A DNA stretch of 64,000 nt, taken from the NCBI GenBank assembly GCA_013821985.1, contig PNJQ01000003.1, forward strand, positions 34,760-98,759. The letters are read 5' to 3'. Shown in pieces: positions 5,584 to 18,711 of the stretch (the first letter of the stretch is position 1; every line of letters starts with the position of its first letter). The stretch is from Opitutus sp. (GTDB lineage: Bacteria; Verrucomicrobiota; Verrucomicrobiia; Opitutales; Opitutaceae). Position numbers and translations under genes: made by a program. Below the pieces are notes generated by a model. The model did no database searches. It was not told the origin of the DNA and saw only the letters and a program-made list of their open reading frames with translations.

Positions 5584-6336
5584 TCAGGAACGCACTGCGC
5601 TCACGGACGAACCCTCCGTCTGTCCTCGGGCGATTCGTTCGCGCAACGCGAGCTGCACGACGCGCGCCGCAGCGGCGGCGGACAGGTGGTCGGTGTTGAG
5701 CACGAGGTCGTAGAGGTGCGGGTCGTCGATGTCCGTGTCGAAGTTTGCGCGCACGAAGCGGCGGCGCGCGTCGTCGGTGGCATCGAGGTGGGCGGCGGCC
5801 TGCGCGCGACCGCACCCGAGGACCGTGGCGACGCGATCGATGCGGGTGTCGCGTGAGGCGATCAGGCGGACATGCAGGCCGCCCGCGAGGTGACGCGTGA
5901 CGAGATGCGACGCGCGTCCGGCGAACACGACGTGACCGACGTGGGCGAGCTGGACGATCGCTTCGGAGACTTTCTGCTCGAGTTGCCAGAGCGAGGGATG
6001 CAGGCCGACGAGTTCGCCGATGCCGGCGCGAATTTCGGAGATGCGATCTTCGGGCAGGTAGTCGGCGAGTTGCGCGGGCAGCTGGTGTTGCGTGAGCGCG
6101 CGTGTGAGAAGGTCGCGATCGAGAAATACCCAAGAGTGGCCCGGCGGGCTGAGCTCGCGGTCGAGCAGTGGGATCAGTTCGCGGCCCAGCGTCGTGGCGC
6201 CGGCGCCGGTCTCGCGCGAGAGCGTGACAAAGGGATGAATTTCGGGGACCGCGCCGGAAGCGACCGGCGACATCGGCGTGCGCAAGCGCGCCTGCAGGAC
6301 GGACAAACCGTGTTCGAGATAAGTATGCGCTGTCAT
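5584..6336 (-). CDS. Cytidylate kinase-like family protein
   Basis: 'VTLSRETGAGATTLGRELIPLLDREL' P-loop, 'VVFAGRASHLVTRHL', 'HVRLIASRDTRIDRV'; start Met 6336. Confidence 0.75.
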   Translation of the reverse strand: MTAHTYLEHGLSVLQARLRTPMSPVASGAVPEIHPFVTLSRETGAGATTLGRELIPLLDRELSPPGHSWVFLDRDLLTRALTQHQLPAQLADYLPEDRISEIRAGIGELVGLHPSLWQLEQKVSEAIVQLAHVGHVVFAGRASHLVTRHLAGGLHVRLIASRDTRIDRVATVLGCGRAQAAAHLDATDDARRRFVRANFDTDIDDPHLYDLVLNTDHLSAAAAARVVQLALRERIARGQTEGSSVSAVRS

Positions 6337-6481
6337 GGGACCTCCTTCGAAAGACTGGCAAAGAGCGCGGGCGGGGCACTGCGCCCGCCGCATACCTAGT
6401 TTACGCCCGAACGGGTTGGAAGCCAGCCGGCGAATGCCAAATTGCTGCGCGCTTCTTGCTCTGTGGCGCGAATGAGGGACG

Positions 6482-7159
6482 TCAGTTGAACGCGCGTGGC
6501 TTCGACGTAACCTGCCCCGGAAACGGCACGCCCCAGAGCGACGGGTTTTCCTGCGGCGCGGGGTCGGCGTCGGGCGCGAGGTATTTGAAGACGTCGGCGA
6601 AACGCAACGAGCATTGGAGGCGGCGCTGGTGCGCATCGATCTTCGGATTCACTTGGATCACGGCTTCGCTGAAGGGCGGGGAACTCTTCATTTTCAACGC
6701 CAGCCTGCGCGTCTCCTCAATCGTGCGGCCCTTATCCTTGATCAAGCGGTCGAGCTTCAGCAGGTCGGCGTAAGTGACCGGACCCCAAAGTTCGCGCCAT
6801 TGTTCAGGAGTGATGAGCGGCGCGATGATGTTCGTGAAGCGCTTCTCATCGCCGTCCTGTTCCCAGAAGCCGAGCACGAGAATGAACGACGTATCAACTT
6901 CGTATTGGCGCACGGCGTCGCCGAGATCGACCGGGGCGCCGTGCTTGATCGCCTTAGGATTTACGGGGACGTTGCCGTGATCCTTGTTCGCGTCGGCTGG
7001 GATATCCCATTTCTGCGTGTAGCTTTTGGGCCGGTAGCCACCGAAAAACTCGTCGCGCACCCACTGTTCGAACACCAGCCCGTGACGCTGCACTTCCTGC
7101 GCAACGAGTCCGGTCGCGAGTGCGAGGCAACAGAAAGCGAGACGACCGGGACGAAGCAT
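6482..7159 (-). CDS. Putative secreted restriction-endonuclease-like protein
   Basis: N-terminal signal-like 'MLRPGRLAFCCLALATGLVAQE' then 'RHGLVFEQWVRDEF...KWDIP...PVNPKAIKHGAPVDLGDAVRQ...FILVLGFWEQDGDEK...QRRLQCSLRF', the layout seen in type II restriction endonuclease-like proteins. Confidence 0.55.
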   Translation of the reverse strand: MLRPGRLAFCCLALATGLVAQEVQRHGLVFEQWVRDEFFGGYRPKSYTQKWDIPADANKDHGNVPVNPKAIKHGAPVDLGDAVRQYEVDTSFILVLGFWEQDGDEKRFTNIIAPLITPEQWRELWGPVTYADLLKLDRLIKDKGRTIEETRRLALKMKSSPPFSEAVIQVNPKIDAHQRRLQCSLRFADVFKYLAPDADPAPQENPSLWGVPFPGQVTSKPRAFN

Positions 7160-7163
7160 CGCC

Positions 7164-8024
7164 TCAGTTTTTCGGGGGTGCACCGCGCGGACGCAAGAAG
7201 ATGAACCAATAGAATGCGCCGACCATGAGACCGCCGCCAATGATGTTGCCCAGCGTAACCGGCAGGAGGTTGGCGCGGAGGAAGTTCATCCAAGTCAGCG
7301 CCGAGAGGTCCGCCCCGGCGCGTCCGGTGGCTGCGAGCACCTCGGCATCGCCCGCGAGGAACAGCCCGAGGGGAATGAAATACATGTTCGCCACCGAGTG
7401 CTCGAACGCCATCGCGACGAACGCCGTGATCGGCGGCACGATCGCGAGCACGCGGTCCGAGATGGTCCGCGCGCCGAGGCAGAGCCAGACCGCCAGGCAG
7501 ACGAGCGCGTTGCAGAACGCGCCGAGCACGACGGCAGCGACGAAGCCGTGATGCACTTTCGCGAGCGCGAGATCGATCGCGACGGCACCGGCCTTGCCGC
7601 CGGCAAACGACCACTGGCGCGAGAGGTAGATGAGATACGCGGTTGCGAGCGCGCCCGCGAAATTGCCGAGATAGACGACGAGCCAGTCGCGCAACAGCGT
7701 GCGCGTCGTGACCTTGCGTGAAGCCCACGCGACGACGAGCAGGACGTTGCCCGTAAACAACTCCGCGCCCGCGATGACGACGAGGATCAGGCCGAGTGAA
7801 AACGCCATGCCGCCCAGCGTGCGCGCGACGCCCCAGCCGAGATTGGAATCGGTCCACACGATGCTCGCGAAACACGCGCCGATCGCGATGAAGGCCCCGC
7901 CGAGGACGGAAAGCGCGAACTTCGACGCGAGGTCGATGGTCGTTTTTCGAATGCCGGACTCCTCGATGCGCGCCGCGATTTCCGCGGGGGTGTAGGCGTC
8001 GAGTCCGACGGGGCGTTCTTGCAT
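7164..8024 (-). CDS. Formate/nitrite transporter (FNT/FocA) family channel
   Basis: 'GGAFIAIGACFA', 'AGAELFTGNVLLV', 'YLGNFAGAL', 'GAFCNALVCLAVWL', 'AFEHSVANMYFIPLGL', 'NIIGGGLMVGAFYWF'. Confidence 0.92.
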   Translation of the reverse strand: MQERPVGLDAYTPAEIAARIEESGIRKTTIDLASKFALSVLGGAFIAIGACFASIVWTDSNLGWGVARTLGGMAFSLGLILVVIAGAELFTGNVLLVVAWASRKVTTRTLLRDWLVVYLGNFAGALATAYLIYLSRQWSFAGGKAGAVAIDLALAKVHHGFVAAVVLGAFCNALVCLAVWLCLGARTISDRVLAIVPPITAFVAMAFEHSVANMYFIPLGLFLAGDAEVLAATGRAGADLSALTWMNFLRANLLPVTLGNIIGGGLMVGAFYWFIFLRPRGAPPKN

Positions 8025-8043: not shown

Positions 8044-8604
8044 TCAGGCCTTGCGCTCGAGGAAGGCGCACAGCGCCTCGAGCTGCGCCGTCCAATACGC
8101 CTTCATTTCCTCGGCGGCGGCGGCGCTCGGCAACTTGCTGTGCTCGGGCACGACCTGACATTTGAGCGGGCCCTTCGGCCAAAAATTGACGGAGACGCTC
8201 GTGTCGTCCGGCCAGCGGATGCGGATGGATTTGTGCGGCGTGGCTTTGCGGACGGAAAGGGGAGTGCGCGGGAGCCATTGTTCGCGCACGACAGCGTCGC
8301 GCCACGCTTCGAAGGCGTTCGCGACGGGTGCCGCGATGGTCTTGCTCACACTGACGTCGAAGCCGTCGCTCGTCTGGTGTTTCACGCGGCGGCCGGTGGC
8401 CTGTTCGTAGCCGACGGTCACCATCTGGCACCACCAGTCGGCGATCTTGTGTTTTTTGTGCAGCCAAAGGGCGATCTCGGCGTGTGGCCAGGATTTCGCG
8501 CCCGCTGCGTCGAGCACTTTGATCCACTCCGCCCAATCGCGCTGGGTGGCTTTTTTCACCGCCGCCGCAGTGATGCCGGCGAGTTTGGCGGTCGGGCGCT
8601 TCAT
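8044..8604 (-). CDS. SRPBCC/AHSA1-type protein with DUF4287-like N-terminus
   Basis: 'HAEIALWLHKKHKIADWWCQMVTVGYEQATGRR' and 'VSKTIAAPVANAFEAWRD...SIRIRWPDDTSVSVNFWPKG'. Confidence 0.75.
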   Translation of the reverse strand: MKRPTAKLAGITAAAVKKATQRDWAEWIKVLDAAGAKSWPHAEIALWLHKKHKIADWWCQMVTVGYEQATGRRVKHQTSDGFDVSVSKTIAAPVANAFEAWRDAVVREQWLPRTPLSVRKATPHKSIRIRWPDDTSVSVNFWPKGPLKCQVVPEHSKLPSAAAAEEMKAYWTAQLEALCAFLERKA

Positions 8605-8952: not shown

Positions 8953-10383
8953 ATGAGCGACGAGAACTCCCAGAAGCTCCGCCTGAAACCCCGACTCGGA
9001 GGCGAAGCCCCTGCGAACCCTCAGCCCCCTGCCGCCCCCGCGCCAGGCGCGGATTCGCCTGCTCCGGTCGCTCCTCCGCCGCCCCCTGCTCCGGAAACTC
9101 CCGCGGCAGCGACCGTCGAGAAACCCGCGATGCCCAGACTTCGTCCGCGCATGTCCGGCGACGCGCCTGTCTCTCCTGGACCGGTCGCCGCGGTGCCGCC
9201 TGCGTCCGCTGCGACACCGGCGATTGAGCCGATGCCGGCACCCGCCGCCGCCGCGCCGAGCGCACCGGTGCCGCCGGCGTCATCCGAGGTTTTTCCTGAG
9301 ACGCCTGCGCCGGTTTCCGCGCCTCTCGCGTCGGCGCCCGCCGCGGAATCACCCAAAACCGAAACACCGAAGCCGAAGTTCGGCTTGAAGCCGCGCGATC
9401 CGGCCGCCGCCCCGGCGGCGAGTGCTCCGTCATCCGCTCCCGCTCCCGCGCCTTCGCCCGCGGCCGCACCTGCGCCCGCGGCGCCGGTGAATTTTGCGCC
9501 GCCGCCTTTTCCGCCTCCGCCCGCGCCCACTGCCTCCACGCCTCTGCCTCCGGTCGCTGCGCCCGCTGCGAATTTCCCGCCACCTCCGCCCGCCGCGGCA
9601 ATGTTTCCGCCACCGCCCGGAGTGAAAGCGCCGCCACCGCCCGGCGCGGGCGGTTTGCCACCTCCACCAACCGTGGCGGAAGGTGCTGCCGCGGCCGACG
9701 CCGAGACCGACGATGACGACGCACCGACGGATCCGAAAGCGGCCTTCAAACAGAAGGTGTTCAAATACGGCGTCATTGCCGTGCTCCTGCTCGCGGCGCT
9801 CGTGTGGAAAGGCGTGAAATATTTTCTCGATCGCACCGCCACGGTCGCGATTGAGCGTGCCGTATTTGATCGCAACAAGGCGCCGGCGACACCCGACGCC
9901 GCCGCGACCGCGCCGAAGGCCGCCGCGAATCCGGCGGAAGGCCCCGCCGCCTCGGAGGGCCCGGGTCCGATCGGCAAGACGAAGGACGTCGTCGCACAGG
10001 CGCAAGCGAACCAGGGTGATCCAACCGCGGAGGCGGTGAGCGCCGCGGCTGGGCCGGCCACGCCCACCGAGGAGAATTCTTCCGCCGCCACCGCGAAATC
10101 GGCGAGTCCGGGCACGACCGCTCCGGTGATCGATCCGATTCCGGCGGTGACGGCCCCGAGTGCGCCGCCAGCGAGTGCGGCGTTCCGCAGCTGGGTGCAG
10201 AATTTGAAAATCAGCGGCGTGCGCGCGGGTGCGAGTCCGCGGGTGTTCATCGAGCGCACGGCCTATGGTCCGGGAGACTTGGTGAACCCGCAGCTCGGCA
10301 TTTCGTTTGAGAGCTACAATGCCGAGACGCGGATGCTGGTGTTCAAGGACAAGTCCGGCGCGCTCGTCGAACGCCGCAACTGA
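8953..10383 (+). CDS. Pro/Ala-rich single-TM protein with short conserved C-terminal domain
   Basis: Long PA-rich low-complexity region, TM 'YGVIAVLLLAALVWKGVKYFL', C-term 'LKISGVRAGASPRVFIERTAYGPGDLVNPQLGISFESYNAETRMLVFKDKSGALVERRN'. Confidence 0.75.
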   Translation: MSDENSQKLRLKPRLGGEAPANPQPPAAPAPGADSPAPVAPPPPPAPETPAAATVEKPAMPRLRPRMSGDAPVSPGPVAAVPPASAATPAIEPMPAPAAAAPSAPVPPASSEVFPETPAPVSAPLASAPAAESPKTETPKPKFGLKPRDPAAAPAASAPSSAPAPAPSPAAAPAPAAPVNFAPPPFPPPPAPTASTPLPPVAAPAANFPPPPPAAAMFPPPPGVKAPPPPGAGGLPPPPTVAEGAAAADAETDDDDAPTDPKAAFKQKVFKYGVIAVLLLAALVWKGVKYFLDRTATVAIERAVFDRNKAPATPDAAATAPKAAANPAEGPAASEGPGPIGKTKDVVAQAQANQGDPTAEAVSAAAGPATPTEENSSAATAKSASPGTTAPVIDPIPAVTAPSAPPASAAFRSWVQNLKISGVRAGASPRVFIERTAYGPGDLVNPQLGISFESYNAETRMLVFKDKSGALVERRN

Positions 10384-10531
10384 CCCCGCCGGCGGATTTT
10401 CGACCAACGTCTAGGGCCGTGCGCCGGATCGGACGCTCCGGCGACGAACACGGCTGGTTTTGCGTTCGGCGGGGTGGCGCGCGCGGTCCGCGGGCTTGCC
10501 TTTTTCAGGGGGCGGGCGCACGCAAAAGGAG

Positions 10532-11716
10532 ATGTCCGTGCGCTACAAAATCAGCTGGCCCACCGCGTTCGCCGTTTGGACGGGCATTGGCTTGGTGTTG
10601 CTGATGCAGACGTTGGCGACGATTGAAATGCCTCCGCATACCGATCCGTTCGCGCGCGTGGCATTCTGGCAGACAGTCTATTATCAGATCTCGCGCGCCT
10701 GGATGTGGTGCCTTCTCACGCCGGTCGTGTTTGATTTGCGGCGCCGGATTCCGGTGAGCGGCTGGTGGCTGCCTTTGGGCATTCTCATCCACGTGGCGTT
10801 CGCCTGGTGTTTCACCGCGTGGATTTTCGGCGCTCGCGCGTGGCTGCTCGGGCCCTTCATCACGGACGGGCCCATGCTCCTGTGGATGTTTTCTTCCGAC
10901 TACATCATCGACAACATGAATGCGCGGCAACTGATCGACGCTGCGCTCTACGTCGGCCTCCTCGGGGCGGGCTACACGCTCGATCTCGGCGAGGAGAAAA
11001 AGCAATCCGATCTGCGCGAGCGCGAGCTGCGGGTTCAGCTAACCGCGAAGGAGCTGCAGGAAGAGCAGCTTCGTTCCGAGCTGGTGCAGGCGGAGATGAA
11101 GGCACTGAAGCAGCAGCTTCACCCGCATTTTTTGTTCAACGCCCTCAACGCCGTCTCCGGCCTCGTGCGGCAGCGCGAGACGGAGCGCGCGGTGACGGCG
11201 CTGTCGCAGGTCAGCGCCTTGTTGCGTGCGTTGATCGGCAGCACGGGCCGGCCGGAGGTCACGCTCGAGGACGAGATGAGCTATTGCGAAACCTATCTCT
11301 CGATCGAAAAGATGCGTTTCGATCACCGGTTGAACTATTCGTTCGACGTCTCGCCGGACGCACTCGTCGCCGAGGTGCCGGCGCTGTTGCTGCAGCCGAT
11401 GGTGGAGAACGCGATCAAGCACGGCATCGCGTGCCGCCGGAATCCCGGCGAGGTCCGCATCAGCGCACGGGTGGAGAACGAAGTGTTGCGCCTCGAAGTC
11501 GTGAACGATCCGGCCGAAATGCCGAAGGGTCGATCCGCGCCCGAGAGCCACGGCGTAGGGCTCGAGACAACGCGCAAGCGCCTCGAACGCGCCTTCGGAA
11601 AGGCCTACACGCTGGCGTGCAACGTCAACACCCCGCGCGGCACGGTCGTGACGATGAGCCTGCCGTTCCGCGTCGCCGAGGCCGCCGTGCCGGTGCGCGC
11701 TCCGACCCGCGTCTAA
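10532..11716 (+). CDS. LytS/YehU-type sensor histidine kinase
   Basis: 'LKQQLHPHFLFNALNAVSGLVR', 'LLLQPMVENAIKHG', 'GVGLETTRKRLERAFG'; RBS-like aaaagga before ATG 10532. Confidence 0.92.
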   Translation: MSVRYKISWPTAFAVWTGIGLVLLMQTLATIEMPPHTDPFARVAFWQTVYYQISRAWMWCLLTPVVFDLRRRIPVSGWWLPLGILIHVAFAWCFTAWIFGARAWLLGPFITDGPMLLWMFSSDYIIDNMNARQLIDAALYVGLLGAGYTLDLGEEKKQSDLRERELRVQLTAKELQEEQLRSELVQAEMKALKQQLHPHFLFNALNAVSGLVRQRETERAVTALSQVSALLRALIGSTGRPEVTLEDEMSYCETYLSIEKMRFDHRLNYSFDVSPDALVAEVPALLLQPMVENAIKHGIACRRNPGEVRISARVENEVLRLEVVNDPAEMPKGRSAPESHGVGLETTRKRLERAFGKAYTLACNVNTPRGTVVTMSLPFRVAEAAVPVRAPTRV

Positions 11717-12505: not shown

Positions 12506-12693
12506 GGAAACGGGGTTGCCAGAGGAAGCCGGGGTTCGGCGCTCGCGCCCAAGGTCGGATTTTCCGCGCCTCGTCGTAGGACTTTTGCGGAGAGTGGGGA
12601 GGCAGTTTGGGTCGGTGCGCGCAGGCGGTCGCTGAACCGCTGCCTGCCGCCACACGGCGCTATGTCGTGCGGCACCTCCAACACCAAAACCCC

Positions 12694-15660
12694 ATGAACA
12701 TGAATCCTACGCATGTGATGCGGAAGCAGCGGCGCGGCCTCGCGCTGTTTGCGCTTCCCGCTGTGCTGGCCCTCCCGGCCGGCGCCCAGACCGCCCCCGT
12801 CGCTCCTGCCGCCGCCGAGAACACGGTGAAGCTCGAGCGTTTCGTCGTCACCGGCTCGAACATCCCGTCCACCGAGAATTCGGCCGAGGCCCGAACGTTT
12901 CCGGTGCTTAGCATCGACAGCCGCGCGATTGAGCAGAGCGGCCTCACCAGCACGACCGAGCTCCTCCAGAAGATGACGCTCTCGAACGGCGGCAGCGTGC
13001 CGTTCACCAATAACGCCACCGGCTTCACTCCTGGCGCGAACTCCGTCTCGCTTCGCGGCTTCGGGCCCGACTACACGCTCGTGCTCGTCAACGGCCGTCG
13101 CATGGCTTCCTATCCCGTGGGCGCGGGCGGCACGGCAGCGTTCATCGACATCAACACCATCCCGCTGCAAGCGATCGAGCGGGTCGAAGTGCTGAAGGAC
13201 GGCGCCTCCGCCATTTACGGCGCGGACGCCGTTGCTGGCGTGGTGAACATCATTTTGCGCCGCAACTACGACGGCACGGTCGTCGCGGGACGGTATGGCA
13301 ACACGACAAACAAGGACTCCTCTGAGGTCACGGCCAGCATCATCACCGGTGCCTCGAGCGCGAAGGGCAACATCACGATCGGCGTGAACTTCCAGAACCG
13401 CGAGCCGATCTTCAATCGCGACCGCAGCTACTCGGCGGTGCCCCCGTTCCTCAGCACCAACGCTTCGCCGGCCAATTTTCAGATCAGCCGCGAAGCGGCC
13501 CTGGAGGCGCTCGGCCTCCCGGCCGGGTCCGCCCTGACCATCAACGGCGCCGCCAATACCACGACCGGCCTCTTCTTTGCCACCACCGGCCGGGCGGATC
13601 CATTCACCCTCGCTCCGCTTGCCGGCAACCAGAACGCCAACAACAACGGCCGTCTGCCCGCCAGCGCGTATTATTTCTCCAGCGGCCGCAGCTCGTTTTT
13701 CAATTTCAACGAATTCTCCGGCTCCTTCCCTCAGATCACGCGCAAGGGCGTCTTTGCCAGCTGGGACCGACACATCTCCGACAAAGTCACGGCCTACGGT
13801 GACGCCATCTACTCGCAGGTGCACCAGGTCGACGAGCTGGCACCCTACGCCACGGGCAACTTCAGCACACCCGGCCAGACGACAATCGTCATTCCCGCCC
13901 GCACGCCCAATCCGATCCTGACCCCGGCCGAGATTGCAGCCGGCGGCACCCGCACCGCCGCCACCGGCGCCTACAATCCGTTCAATCCCTTCAATCAGGA
14001 CATCGCCGGCGGCTCGCGCATCCGCTTGGCCGAGTTCGGCAACCGCATCATCAACAACCGCAACACCGCCCTTGCCCTCACTGGTGGTCTGCGGTGGGAG
14101 AACATCGCGGACAAATTCTCCCTCGATGCCAGCGTGCGCTACAGCGAGATCACCAACCAAGCCAACGCCCGGCTGATCTCGACCTCACGCTTCCTCCGGG
14201 CGATGAACGCCGCCGACCCGATCTTCAATCCCGCGAGCTCGAGCTACATTGGCACCACCACGCCCTACAACCCGTTCGGCTATTTCCGCAATGCGATCCC
14301 ATCCAATTCGGCACCGGTGGCTTTCGCGACCCATTACCAGCGTGACGAGAACCGCTCCACGCTCTGGGATGCGGGTTTCACTTTGAGCACCGCCAGCCTC
14401 TTCGCCCTCCCCGGAGGAGACGTCGGTTTTGCCTTAGGCATGGAAATGTATCGCGAGTCAGTCATGCAGTCGCCCGATTCGACGCTCCAGTCCGGCGACA
14501 TTCTGGGCGCCACACCCGCCTCGCCGATCGAGCGCCAGCGCAAGATCGCCTCAGGCTTCACTGAGGCCGAGATCCCCATCGTCTCGGATAAGAATGCGAT
14601 GCCGTTCGTGCACAACCTGTCGATGAATCTCGCGGCCCGCTACGAGAAGTTCCTCACCTCCGACCGCAACACCTTCGTCCCGAAAATCGGCCTCCGCTGG
14701 GAACCGCTGAATGACAAGACCCTGGTCGTGCGCTTCAGCTACGGCGAGGGCTTCAAGGAACCGTCGCTGTTCCAACTCTACTCGCCCCCGGTGGCTGCAC
14801 TTACGCCGATCGAGGATCCCGTCACAGGCGTGTTTGAGCCGGAGCAGAACGTCACCACGGCGGGCAATTCCCAGCTACAGGCCGAGGACTCTTCATCCTA
14901 CAACCTTGGCGTGGTTTGGTCGCCAAAGAACGCGCTTTCGGGCTTCTCGCTCGCCGTCGATTTCTGGCGCGTCGAGAGCTCCGGCCAGGTCGCGACCGTT
15001 TATCAGAACGTCGTCGACCGGGCCGCCGGTGTCGCCCCAGGCGGTCTGCTGCCAGGCGAAGGAATCGTGCGCGACTTCGCGGGCAACCTCGTGCTCGTCC
15101 GCGCGGTCTATACGAACGCCGGTCAAACCAAGGTTGACGGTGTCGACATGTCCGCGTCCTACCTCTGGAACACCGATTCATTCGGTCGCTTCGAACTGGG
15201 CGCCTCCAGCACCTACATGCATTCCTACCGCGCCGCAGCCGTGCCGGGTGTGCCGCTCTTCGAGCTGGTCGACCAGACGGTTCCCGGTAGTCCCGGCGAC
15301 GACGCCTTCCTGAAATGGAAAGGCCAGGCTTTCGCCGACTGGACCTGGAATGATCTCACTGCCCACCTCGTCGCCAATTACACGCACGGCTTCCAGGACT
15401 TCGACCTCAACGGCGACCCCTACCGCGTGAAGGCCACCACGACCTTCGACCTCCAGCTCAGCTACAAGTTCTTCTCGTCCCGCGACCAGAGCAACCGCGA
15501 CTGGTGGAGCGATATCAAGCTCAGCGCCGGTGTCCGCAACCTCTTCGACAAGGATCCGCCGATCGCCTATGGCGGCGGTGGCAACTCGAACGGCTACCCG
15601 GGCTTCATCTACACCACCGAAAATCGCTTCATCTACTTCGGCTTCGAGAAGAAGATCTGA
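12694..15660 (+). CDS. TonB-dependent receptor (1 of 4 in tandem)
   Basis: Signal peptide, plug 'LERFVVTGSNIP', 'SLRGFGPDYTLVLVNGRRMASYP', 'VEVLKDGASAIYGADAVAGVVNIIL'. Confidence 0.95.
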   Translation: MNMNPTHVMRKQRRGLALFALPAVLALPAGAQTAPVAPAAAENTVKLERFVVTGSNIPSTENSAEARTFPVLSIDSRAIEQSGLTSTTELLQKMTLSNGGSVPFTNNATGFTPGANSVSLRGFGPDYTLVLVNGRRMASYPVGAGGTAAFIDINTIPLQAIERVEVLKDGASAIYGADAVAGVVNIILRRNYDGTVVAGRYGNTTNKDSSEVTASIITGASSAKGNITIGVNFQNREPIFNRDRSYSAVPPFLSTNASPANFQISREAALEALGLPAGSALTINGAANTTTGLFFATTGRADPFTLAPLAGNQNANNNGRLPASAYYFSSGRSSFFNFNEFSGSFPQITRKGVFASWDRHISDKVTAYGDAIYSQVHQVDELAPYATGNFSTPGQTTIVIPARTPNPILTPAEIAAGGTRTAATGAYNPFNPFNQDIAGGSRIRLAEFGNRIINNRNTALALTGGLRWENIADKFSLDASVRYSEITNQANARLISTSRFLRAMNAADPIFNPASSSYIGTTTPYNPFGYFRNAIPSNSAPVAFATHYQRDENRSTLWDAGFTLSTASLFALPGGDVGFALGMEMYRESVMQSPDSTLQSGDILGATPASPIERQRKIASGFTEAEIPIVSDKNAMPFVHNLSMNLAARYEKFLTSDRNTFVPKIGLRWEPLNDKTLVVRFSYGEGFKEPSLFQLYSPPVAALTPIEDPVTGVFEPEQNVTTAGNSQLQAEDSSSYNLGVVWSPKNALSGFSLAVDFWRVESSGQVATVYQNVVDRAAGVAPGGLLPGEGIVRDFAGNLVLVRAVYTNAGQTKVDGVDMSASYLWNTDSFGRFELGASSTYMHSYRAAAVPGVPLFELVDQTVPGSPGDDAFLKWKGQAFADWTWNDLTAHLVANYTHGFQDFDLNGDPYRVKATTTFDLQLSYKFFSSRDQSNRDWWSDIKLSAGVRNLFDKDPPIAYGGGGNSNGYPGFIYTTENRFIYFGFEKKI

Positions 15661-15686
15661 GCGAGATCCACTGTATCGTGGAAGCG

Positions 15687-15717
15687 AGGCGCGCCAAATC
15701 GGGCGCGCCTTTTTTTT
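15687..15717 (+). terminator. Intrinsic terminator after TonB receptor 1
   Basis: AGGCGCGCC-AAATCG-GGCGCGCCT followed by T tract. Confidence 0.9.
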
Positions 15718-15784
15718 GTGCGCTTGGGCCGGTCGGTCCACGTGCGATACGTCCGCGGGTCAGCGGCTAGACGATGGGCGCGCT

Positions 15785-15840
15785 CCACTAGTCGCGGGTC
15801 GCACCGCCTTTGCCCGGTCGCGGAGAACCGGGCGTGTTCA
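15785..15840 (+). promoter_or_regulatory. Leader element upstream of TonB receptor 2 (weaker match to those of receptors 3 and 4)
   Basis: ACTAGTCGCGGGTCGC..CC..TTGCC..GTCGCG....GGGCGTGTTC aligned to the other leaders. Confidence 0.45.
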
Positions 15841-15915
15841 CCACACCCCTCGGAGAACCTGAACGCTCCGTGGTCGCCGCGCCGCACGTTGCGGCGCGGA
15901 ACCAACACCAAACCC

Positions 15916-18711
15916 ATGAACATGAAAACATCGCATGTGATGCGGAAGCACTGGCGCGCCTTCGCGCTTTGCACGCTTCCCGTTCTGCTGGCCGCGCGTC
16001 TGAGCGCACAGCAGGCTCCCGCCACCACCGCCTCCAACGACGAAGGCGCCCTCAAGTTGGAAAAGTTCGTCGTGACCGGCTCTTACATTCCGATCGCCGG
16101 ATCCGCCACTGCGATCCCGGTGACGACGATTGACGCGACGCAAATCAACAACTCCGGCGTCAACACGAGTCTTCTCGAGGTCCTCCGCAAGACGACCCCG
16201 CAGTTCATCGGCAACGGCAACCTTGGCTCCTCGAACGCGGATATCAATTCCGGCACGACGGGCGGCGGTTCCGCGGTCGCCTTCCGCAACACGCAGACAC
16301 TTGTCCTCCTCAACGGGCGCCGCGCGGCCTACTCGCCGATTCTCGCCTCGGGCGGCGCGCAGTTCTTTGACGTTAACTTGATCCCGATCTCCGCGGTCGA
16401 GCGCATCGAAATCCTCCAGGACGGCGCCTCGGCCATCTACGGCACCGATGCCGTCGCCGGCGTGGTGAACATCATCCTCAAGTCCAATTTCGAGGGTTTT
16501 GAGTTCAACGGCCGCTACGCGTTCTCCCCGAACGATGGCAACTACGCCGAGCGCAAGTTCTCCCTCACCGGCGGCGTGGGCAACGGCAAGTCCTCGATCA
16601 CGGTCAGCGCCGAGTGGACGCGCACCGACCCGCTCTTCCAATACGACCGCCCCTTTTCGGCGCAGAGCTACGGCACGCCAACCTTCGGCGGCGTGGTGAA
16701 CAACGACGCCACCGGCCAGTTCTATGTGTTGAATCCGTCGCTCAACGCTCCGCCGCTCAACACCGACCTCACGCTCGCCCAACTCGTGGCCAACGGCACC
16801 TACATCCCGGTCGATTCCAATAATCTGATCCAAGGCTTGGGCGCCGAGCAGCAATATGCGTTCAACCTCGCGAGTTATGTCACGCTGCTGCAGGGCCAGG
16901 AGCGCTCCAGCGCCGTCTTGAACTTCGATCACAAGATCAGCGATTCCATTTCGGCTTTCGGCGATTTCCTCTACACGCAAACCGAGTCCTATCTGCAGAT
17001 CAACGCCCAGCCGGTGAGCTCCGTGCGCACCGCGGCCGACCCGACCAACCCGTCCGACGTCACCCTGCGCGCGCGCAACCGCTTCGTCGAATTCCCCCGG
17101 CAGTATTTCTACGCCTCGAATTCCCTGCGCGGCATCTTCGGCCTTCGTGGCGAAGTCGGCGACTACACGTGGGAAGCCGCGGCGAATCGCAATCGCATCG
17201 AGCAGAGTTATCGCAACGTGAACGTCGTCAACTCGGCCGCTCGCGCCGCCGCGGTGGCCTCGGGTGCGCTCAACATGTTCGCCCGCACGCAAACCCCGGG
17301 CGCGATCACAGCATCGGGCATGTTCGGCACGGCCATCGGCCTCGCCCAGACGACGCTCGAAAGTTACGACGCGCGCGTCACCGGCAACCTCGCCGACCTC
17401 CCGGCCGGCGAACTCGGCTTCGCCGTCGGTATGGAATACCGCGTCGAAACGCTCCAGCAGACCTCCGATGTGTTCAGCCAGACGGCGACGTTCGGCTGGG
17501 ACTCGGCCACGACGCTCGATCCCACCAACGCCGATCGCAACATCAGCTCCGCCTTCGTCAACGTCCGCGTGCCGATCTTCGGGGGCGAAGCAACGGCTCC
17601 GGGCTTCTACCTGCTCGAACTCGAAGGCGCGCTCCGCACCGAGAAATACAGCGACACCGACGACCCGACCGTCCCGAAGATCACCGCGCGTTGGCTGCCC
17701 TTCAGCGATGAGTTCGCCGTGCGCGGCACTTACTCCGAGTCGTTTGCCGCTCCGACGCTCTTCCAGCTCTTCGGACCGAACTTGATCGGCTCCACCCCGT
17801 CGCTCTCCCTCGATCGCCTCGGCGGCGGCATCATCTCCGGGCAGGCTAATTACCTCGGCGGAGCGAATCCGAACCTCCGTCCGAGCGAATCGACCAACTA
17901 CACGTTCGGCGTTGTCTGGTCGCCGAAGTCGATCAAGGGCTTCTCCATGTCGCTCGATTATTTCAGCATCGAGCAGACCGATCTCGTCGGCATCATCGGC
18001 TCGACGGTCATTCTGCAGGACGTCGAGACCAACGGCACCGCCTCGGCCTACGCCAATCGCGTGCGCTTCGGCCCGGCCGACGACTTCACGCAGTTCACCG
18101 CCGGCGCGCCGGTCACGGCTGCCGGCCAGATTGGCAACCGTCCAATCGACACCGTCTACGTCAGCGACTACAACACGAACATCGCGGCCGTGACGCTCTC
18201 CGGTCTCGACCTGAAGGTGAACCACACGTGGAACAGCGACAGCCTCGGCCGCTTCGACTTCGGTTTGGCCGGCGCCTACTTCGCCGAATACCTCTACGAG
18301 CCGCTCCCGGGGCAAGGCGTGCAGGAAACCGCCGGCTACGCCACGACGTTCAACGGCGCGATTCCGAAGTGGCAGACCTACGTCAACGGCAGCTGGAGCA
18401 AGGGCGCGTGGGGCGCGACGTTCGGCTGGACGCACATCCCGTCCGTCGAAGACGTCAACGCCTACGATCCCACCGACAGCACCGCGGACGCGCATATCGA
18501 GGCCTTCAACTCGATCGACGTCAGTGCGCAGTTCGCGTTCGGCTCCAGCCACAAGCTGCTCAATGGCCTGACGCTGCGCATCGGCGCCAACAACGTGCTG
18601 AACGAAATGCCGCCGCAGGCCAAGGGCTCGTTCCCGAATGGCAACGCCGACCTCGCCACCTACGGCGCCATCGGCCGCCTGATCTTCGTCGAAGCCCGCT
18701 ACCGCTTCTAA
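15916..18711 (+). CDS. TonB-dependent receptor (2 of 4)
   Basis: 'LKLEKFVVTGSYIP', 'TLVLLNGRRAAYSP', 'IEILQDGASAIYGTDAVAGVVNIILKSNF', C-terminal 'FVEARYRF'. Confidence 0.95.
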   Translation: MNMKTSHVMRKHWRAFALCTLPVLLAARLSAQQAPATTASNDEGALKLEKFVVTGSYIPIAGSATAIPVTTIDATQINNSGVNTSLLEVLRKTTPQFIGNGNLGSSNADINSGTTGGGSAVAFRNTQTLVLLNGRRAAYSPILASGGAQFFDVNLIPISAVERIEILQDGASAIYGTDAVAGVVNIILKSNFEGFEFNGRYAFSPNDGNYAERKFSLTGGVGNGKSSITVSAEWTRTDPLFQYDRPFSAQSYGTPTFGGVVNNDATGQFYVLNPSLNAPPLNTDLTLAQLVANGTYIPVDSNNLIQGLGAEQQYAFNLASYVTLLQGQERSSAVLNFDHKISDSISAFGDFLYTQTESYLQINAQPVSSVRTAADPTNPSDVTLRARNRFVEFPRQYFYASNSLRGIFGLRGEVGDYTWEAAANRNRIEQSYRNVNVVNSAARAAAVASGALNMFARTQTPGAITASGMFGTAIGLAQTTLESYDARVTGNLADLPAGELGFAVGMEYRVETLQQTSDVFSQTATFGWDSATTLDPTNADRNISSAFVNVRVPIFGGEATAPGFYLLELEGALRTEKYSDTDDPTVPKITARWLPFSDEFAVRGTYSESFAAPTLFQLFGPNLIGSTPSLSLDRLGGGIISGQANYLGGANPNLRPSESTNYTFGVVWSPKSIKGFSMSLDYFSIEQTDLVGIIGSTVILQDVETNGTASAYANRVRFGPADDFTQFTAGAPVTAAGQIGNRPIDTVYVSDYNTNIAAVTLSGLDLKVNHTWNSDSLGRFDFGLAGAYFAEYLYEPLPGQGVQETAGYATTFNGAIPKWQTYVNGSWSKGAWGATFGWTHIPSVEDVNAYDPTDSTADAHIEAFNSIDVSAQFAFGSSHKLLNGLTLRIGANNVLNEMPPQAKGSFPNGNADLATYGAIGRLIFVEARYRF

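Follow-up and report, generated by a model that had tools for sequence, protein, structure and literature searches.

What protects a bacterium from a restriction endonuclease homologue that appears to be exported and has no methyltransferase gene beside it? In the textbook scheme, restriction relies on a methyltransferase to keep the cell's own DNA from being cut, and the question is raised here by a minus-strand open reading frame (ATG at 7159, stop at 6482; 225 codons plus stop, 225 residues) in a 64,000-nucleotide stretch of Opitutus sp. DNA that was analysed as a whole (the window). All of the peptides quoted in an initial annotation of this DNA are found in the translation of this frame, and it is a real conserved gene and no chance reading frame, since homologues 38–75% identical to its product occur in many Verrucomicrobiota, both in Opitutaceae and outside them. 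We propose, with a probability of roughly 0.7, that 6482–7159 encodes an exported, GTAC-specific restriction endonuclease, and that its carriers are protected by the elimination of GTAC sites.

Pfam searches and neighbourhood comparison place two genes upstream on the same minus strand: a formate/nitrite transporter (FNT) channel gene immediately next to the nuclease gene (7164–8024; Pfam Form_Nir_trans, 1e-72) and an AHSA1/DUF4287-like gene (8044–8604). The FNT stop lies 4 nt upstream of the nuclease frame, a spacing given in the initial annotation and borne out by the coordinates. Where close relatives have no FNT gene in between, the AHSA1-like gene directly precedes the nuclease gene. A functional tie to formate/nitrite transport was considered and dropped, because FNT adjacency is not conserved among close relatives. 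Elsewhere in the window (12607–18711), two adjacent long frames resemble TonB-dependent receptors and have similar signal-bearing N-termini.

Among genomes sampled from the order, 11 of 177 have a homologue of the protein; in a sample of the class, a profile search found one in 40 of 286 genomes. A search of a plasmid collection returned none. The most informative relative lies in the same genome, where a second copy on contig 31 is 41–43% identical, starts MAEVQAHG and has no signal peptide. A gene for a DPPY (m6A-type) methyltransferase (Pfam N6_N4_Mtase, 1.6e-45) follows 54 bp downstream, and the two form a restriction–modification (R-M) pair (L040: endonuclease 9962–10603, methyltransferase 9101–9907). 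Type II R-M pairs of this signal-less clade also occur in three other genomes (G692, G625 and G584). There the two genes lie tail to tail (L178, L181 and L192, the last with a truncated endonuclease), and the methyltransferases of these convergent pairs are orthologous to the one on contig 31 (61–64% identical). With the PADLOC REase_II model PDLC03460, the window protein scores 3.3e-8, and a homologue from phage scores 1.9e-51. On sequence grounds the family is thus a Type II restriction endonuclease family, given this match and the pairing of the signal-less paralogue with a methyltransferase here and in three other genomes; the likeness to restriction endonucleases drawn in the initial annotation is upheld by the same two observations. 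In the tree, the R-M clade (support 100/99) is set apart from clade A (97/91), which holds the exported proteins; outside both lies another clade (99/97), less large, whose members mostly bear a signal. As the initial annotation had it, no methyltransferase is nearby: there is none within the 64-kb window, and no linked cognate one was found beside the exported homologues. The exported protein is therefore homologous to restriction endonucleases but does not amount to a full R-M system.

Signal peptides were called from hydropathy and inspection. In the window protein, residues 1–20 (MLRPGRLAFCCLALATGLVA; 7100–7159, minus strand) form a predicted Sec signal peptide, with a positively charged n-region, a hydrophobic core (Kyte-Doolittle 2.4) and a predicted signal peptidase I-type site before Q21-E22, with a small residue at -1. 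The mature enzyme would then occupy 6485–7099 (minus strand). The hydrophobic stretch, earlier described as a plausible Sec signal, is real and recurs across the exported clade; to the earlier question of whether homologues carry signal peptides, the answer is that clade A has about 30 members and essentially all of them do, as against none in the R-M clade. The clade-A N-termini diverge in sequence and keep their hydropathy; each begins with a short charged segment, followed by a hydrophobic core and, ahead of AQ-EVQ, small residues. The signal is joined at the ancestral start, in that cytoplasmic relatives and phage proteins begin M(A)EVQ-HG and the exported proteins read ...A-Q-EVQ-HG. These features point to export of the protein to the periplasm or outside.

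Several putative catalytic residues are conserved. An invariant Glu in the first helix, E31 (7067–7069), is a putative active-site residue, and D52 of the WDI motif (7004–7006) is an invariant putative metal-binding Asp, both seen in alignments A1, A2, A3 and A4. The aligned N67-P68-K69 (6953–6961) is an (S/N)xK motif with a nearly invariant Lys; it reads NPK in the window protein, and the R-M and phage relatives have SIK or SVK instead. Towards the C-terminus, conservation in the family is highest in the motif NPKIDAHQRRLQCS (6608–6649; all four features on the minus strand), whose P-K, Q, R and Q-C positions do not vary between Opitutaceae and cyanophages and which possibly plays a role in DNA recognition. 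Over the same range E31, D52, K69 and the NPK...QRR.QCS motif are kept at 23–33% identity. Of the two catalytic residues named earlier, the D of WDI is therefore retained as D52, but for the Lys it is K69 of NPK, and not that of AIK, which is conserved. G541 and G531 each have a second exported paralogue (L190 and L191) from which this lysine is gone (ALVR, ASLH); these are possibly inactive relatives with another role.

AlphaFold2 gave two confident models (pLDDT 94.4 and 92.7), the mature enzyme (residues 22–225) being predicted at pLDDT 94 and pTM 0.88. Foldseek matched the model strongly to a single viral protein, A7RBT9 (298 aa, TM 0.84). Against the PDB neither model gave a significant match; the PD-(D/E)XK enzymes PvuII, HincII, DpnI and MGME1 appear among the insignificant matches only, and sequence searches of the PDB returned chance matches only. 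The acidic residue of the (D/E)xK motif is N or S in this family. The window protein may plausibly have a PD-(D/E)XK fold.

A clue to specificity lies in the genomes themselves. GTAC is absent throughout the window (1–64000), where 77 occurrences are expected. Whole genomes were measured by the count of SSGTACSS over that of the reversed control SSCATGSS, and the genome from which the window comes has 8 of the former and 1765 of the latter. Samples of eight carriers, taken at a distance from the gene, contain GTAC 5 times against 230 expected, compared with 304 against 544 in sampled Opitutaceae without the gene. The median ratio is 0.0023 in 16 carriers and 0.319 in 20 non-carriers, all of them Opitutaceae (p = 7e-7, phylogeny ignored). 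SSGTACSS is missing altogether from G050, G102, G164, G306, G531 and G626, and several of the genomes free of it measure 3–4 Mb. Codon use follows the same pattern, in that Tyr is encoded by TAC after a G-ending codon in 0 of 30 cases in the window and 0 of 69 in seven carriers, compared with 68 of 134 in non-carriers. From this correlation in genome composition we infer the GTAC specificity and the cleavage activity of the window protein.

It is common for nucleases to be secreted for the use of DNA, and many relatives without the gene are themselves mildly depleted in GTAC (ratio 0.1–0.7), so that one might see a nutritional or general nuclease here and put the correlation down to coincidental phylogenetic signal. 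We give this very little credence, since a comparison of all tetranucleotides limits the effect to GTAC, carriers and non-carriers contrast even within genera (g1, g6 and g12), and the paralogue is an R-M enzyme. Searches of Pfam and NCBIfam with the nuclease protein gave no match, so no known nuclease family was recovered in Pfam. The DNA-scavenging role suggested in the initial annotation would likewise leave the conserved site specificity unexplained.

The loss of GTAC is not uniform. Some sites are kept in four carriers (G437, G615, G154 and G598; ratio 0.05–0.16), and one contig of G000 holds many. The Opitutaceae genome G091 (L274–L276) is nearly GTAC-free with no detectable copy of the gene, which suggests recent gene loss or another GTAC enzyme; its leftover SSGTACSS sites fall in one 35-kb stretch of contig 5 and at one site on contig 12. 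In G091, as in G126 and G416, the remaining GTACs are concentrated in lower-GC stretches, which are likely acquired islands. An exact match to the universal GTAC-containing 16S rRNA sequence (GTACACACCGCCCGT) was found in 1 of 18 genomes, the rRNA genes apparently lying outside the sequences searched.

If sites are eliminated, is methylation needed at all? Orthologues of the contig-31 methyltransferase, which is probably cognate to the enzyme family, are present in 10 of 28 carriers (56–70% identical), the window's genome included; none of them is linked to the exported gene. In the window's genome the methyltransferase partners the paralogue; in the other methyltransferase-bearing carriers examined, no endonuclease homologue adjoins it. 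Methylation may therefore contribute to protection in these ten. In the other 18, a search confined to orthologues of this methyltransferase detected none, and these genomes are as GTAC-free as the rest (median ratio 0.0019). Methyltransferase-bearing carriers did not keep significantly more GTAC (p = 0.22). The earlier concern that a cognate methyltransferase elsewhere might protect the host thus holds in part: this genome has a probable one, as do 9 of the 27 other carriers, but 18 of the 28 have no orthologue. The unlinked orphans (L263–L272), orthologues of the methyltransferase in the R-M pair, lie in ordinary neighbourhoods, and that of L267 is apparently fused to an N-terminal helix-turn-helix-like segment.

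The genomes of the signal-less R-M clade are depleted in GTAC too (ratio 0.001–0.055), and the purge by itself is therefore independent of export. This leaves room for the view that carriers preserve the remains of an ancient GTAC R-M system, in which a cytoplasmic enzyme and its methyltransferase did the purging and the exported form was tolerated later, serving now in some unrelated role such as scavenging or killing neighbours. The existence of that clade, the persistence of orphan methyltransferases in 10 of 28 carriers and the documented survival of site avoidance as the trace of lost systems (PMC4687349) all fit such a history. We nevertheless hold it to be rather unlikely, because relatives without the exported gene in g1, g6 and g12 have returned to intermediate GTAC, zero matches in 4-Mb genomes call for continuing selection, and the zero-match genomes have the exported gene and mostly no methyltransferase.

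We therefore favour an exported enzyme acting in GTAC-purged carriers. A Sec signal peptide would have been joined at the original start of a Type II-like endonuclease recognising GTAC, which would then be sent to the periplasm or outside and cut double-stranded DNA at that site. Being exported, it would act on incoming or extracellular DNA, such as transforming DNA, phage DNA or the DNA of lysed neighbours. Self would be told by the absence of GTAC and not by a methyl mark, carriers being protected because their chromosomes have been purged of the site. Either of two routes may drive the purge: enzyme that folds too early for export may leak, or alleles with GTAC may be lost preferentially when DNA is taken up. 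The presence of ComEC does not discriminate between them.

So nearly complete a loss of GTAC implies contact between the enzyme and own or kin DNA, which is at odds with the earlier statement that an exported nuclease would need no self-protection, and is in tension with clean export. Contact with own DNA would be expected if the protein were in practice not exported, the signal being an uncleaved anchor or inefficient, and an unmethylated cytoplasmic or membrane-bound enzyme being tolerated in a GTAC-free chromosome. This appears improbable to us, as the n-region, the h-region and the small residues before the cleavage site are kept despite divergence in sequence, and the signal is joined exactly at the ancestral start. 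Taken further, an exported location would allow a barrier free of methylation, in which an extracytoplasmic endonuclease tells self by the absence of its site and the genome is held GTAC-free by selection or by cleavage-biased gene transfer. We put this broader idea at even odds; if true, it would be the mirror image of DNA uptake sequences.

An exported restriction endonuclease homologue has been kept across many genera with no linked methyltransferase and, in most carriers, no detectable cognate one. This makes testable a restriction that works on site avoidance alone, a restriction barrier in the periplasm, and the genome-wide reshaping of codon use by a nuclease. A tetramer missing from a genome would be a cheap finder for such systems.

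The closest known counterparts are the R-M pairs of the same genome and of G692, G625 and G584, whose endonucleases are homologous (about 41% identical) and have in common with the window protein the E, D, (S/N)xK and NPK..QRR.QCS motifs; they differ in having an adjacent methyltransferase, no signal peptide, and SIK or SVK in place of NPK. Also close are the PDLC03460 model, by sequence profile, and the Foldseek match A7RBT9, which is viral and longer, with no export signal known. A7RBT9 may be the chlorovirus GTAC enzyme CviQI. The CviQI methyltransferase acts on GTAC (PMC4357717).

The cyanophage family phrog_6892 (T4-GC 495) consists of full-length homologues, 23–33% identical, that share the invariant residues and lack a signal peptide. 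Such viral homologues surfaced with phage sequences as search seeds, a first viral scan having given none, and T4-like cyanophages (L060–L064, L065–L144) carry the full-length signal-less form on at least 93 IMG/VR contigs; it is a candidate phage restriction-type endonuclease. GTAC depletion in cyanophages was considered as independent support and rejected as unspecific, CCGG and AGCT being equally depleted there. On the large phage contig L322, a homologue lies beside a gene with an NPPF motif (5871–6707 and 6711–7370), perhaps a phage-borne R-M-like pair.

The restriction glycosylases PabI and HpyAXII recognise GTAC, as we propose for the window protein, but have a HALFPIPE fold, act by base excision and are paired with a methyltransferase; no PabI entry was among the PDB sequence or fold matches. 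GTAC avoidance is reported from Helicobacter and Campylobacter with the PabI family (PMC10273834), and restriction avoidance in general is known (PMC4687349). In a literature search of partial coverage, no restriction enzyme described as secreted or periplasmic came up, nor any work on GTAC in Opitutaceae. Compared with these systems, what appears to be new is the combination of an exported enzyme that has no methyltransferase linked to it with genomes from which GTAC is almost wholly gone.
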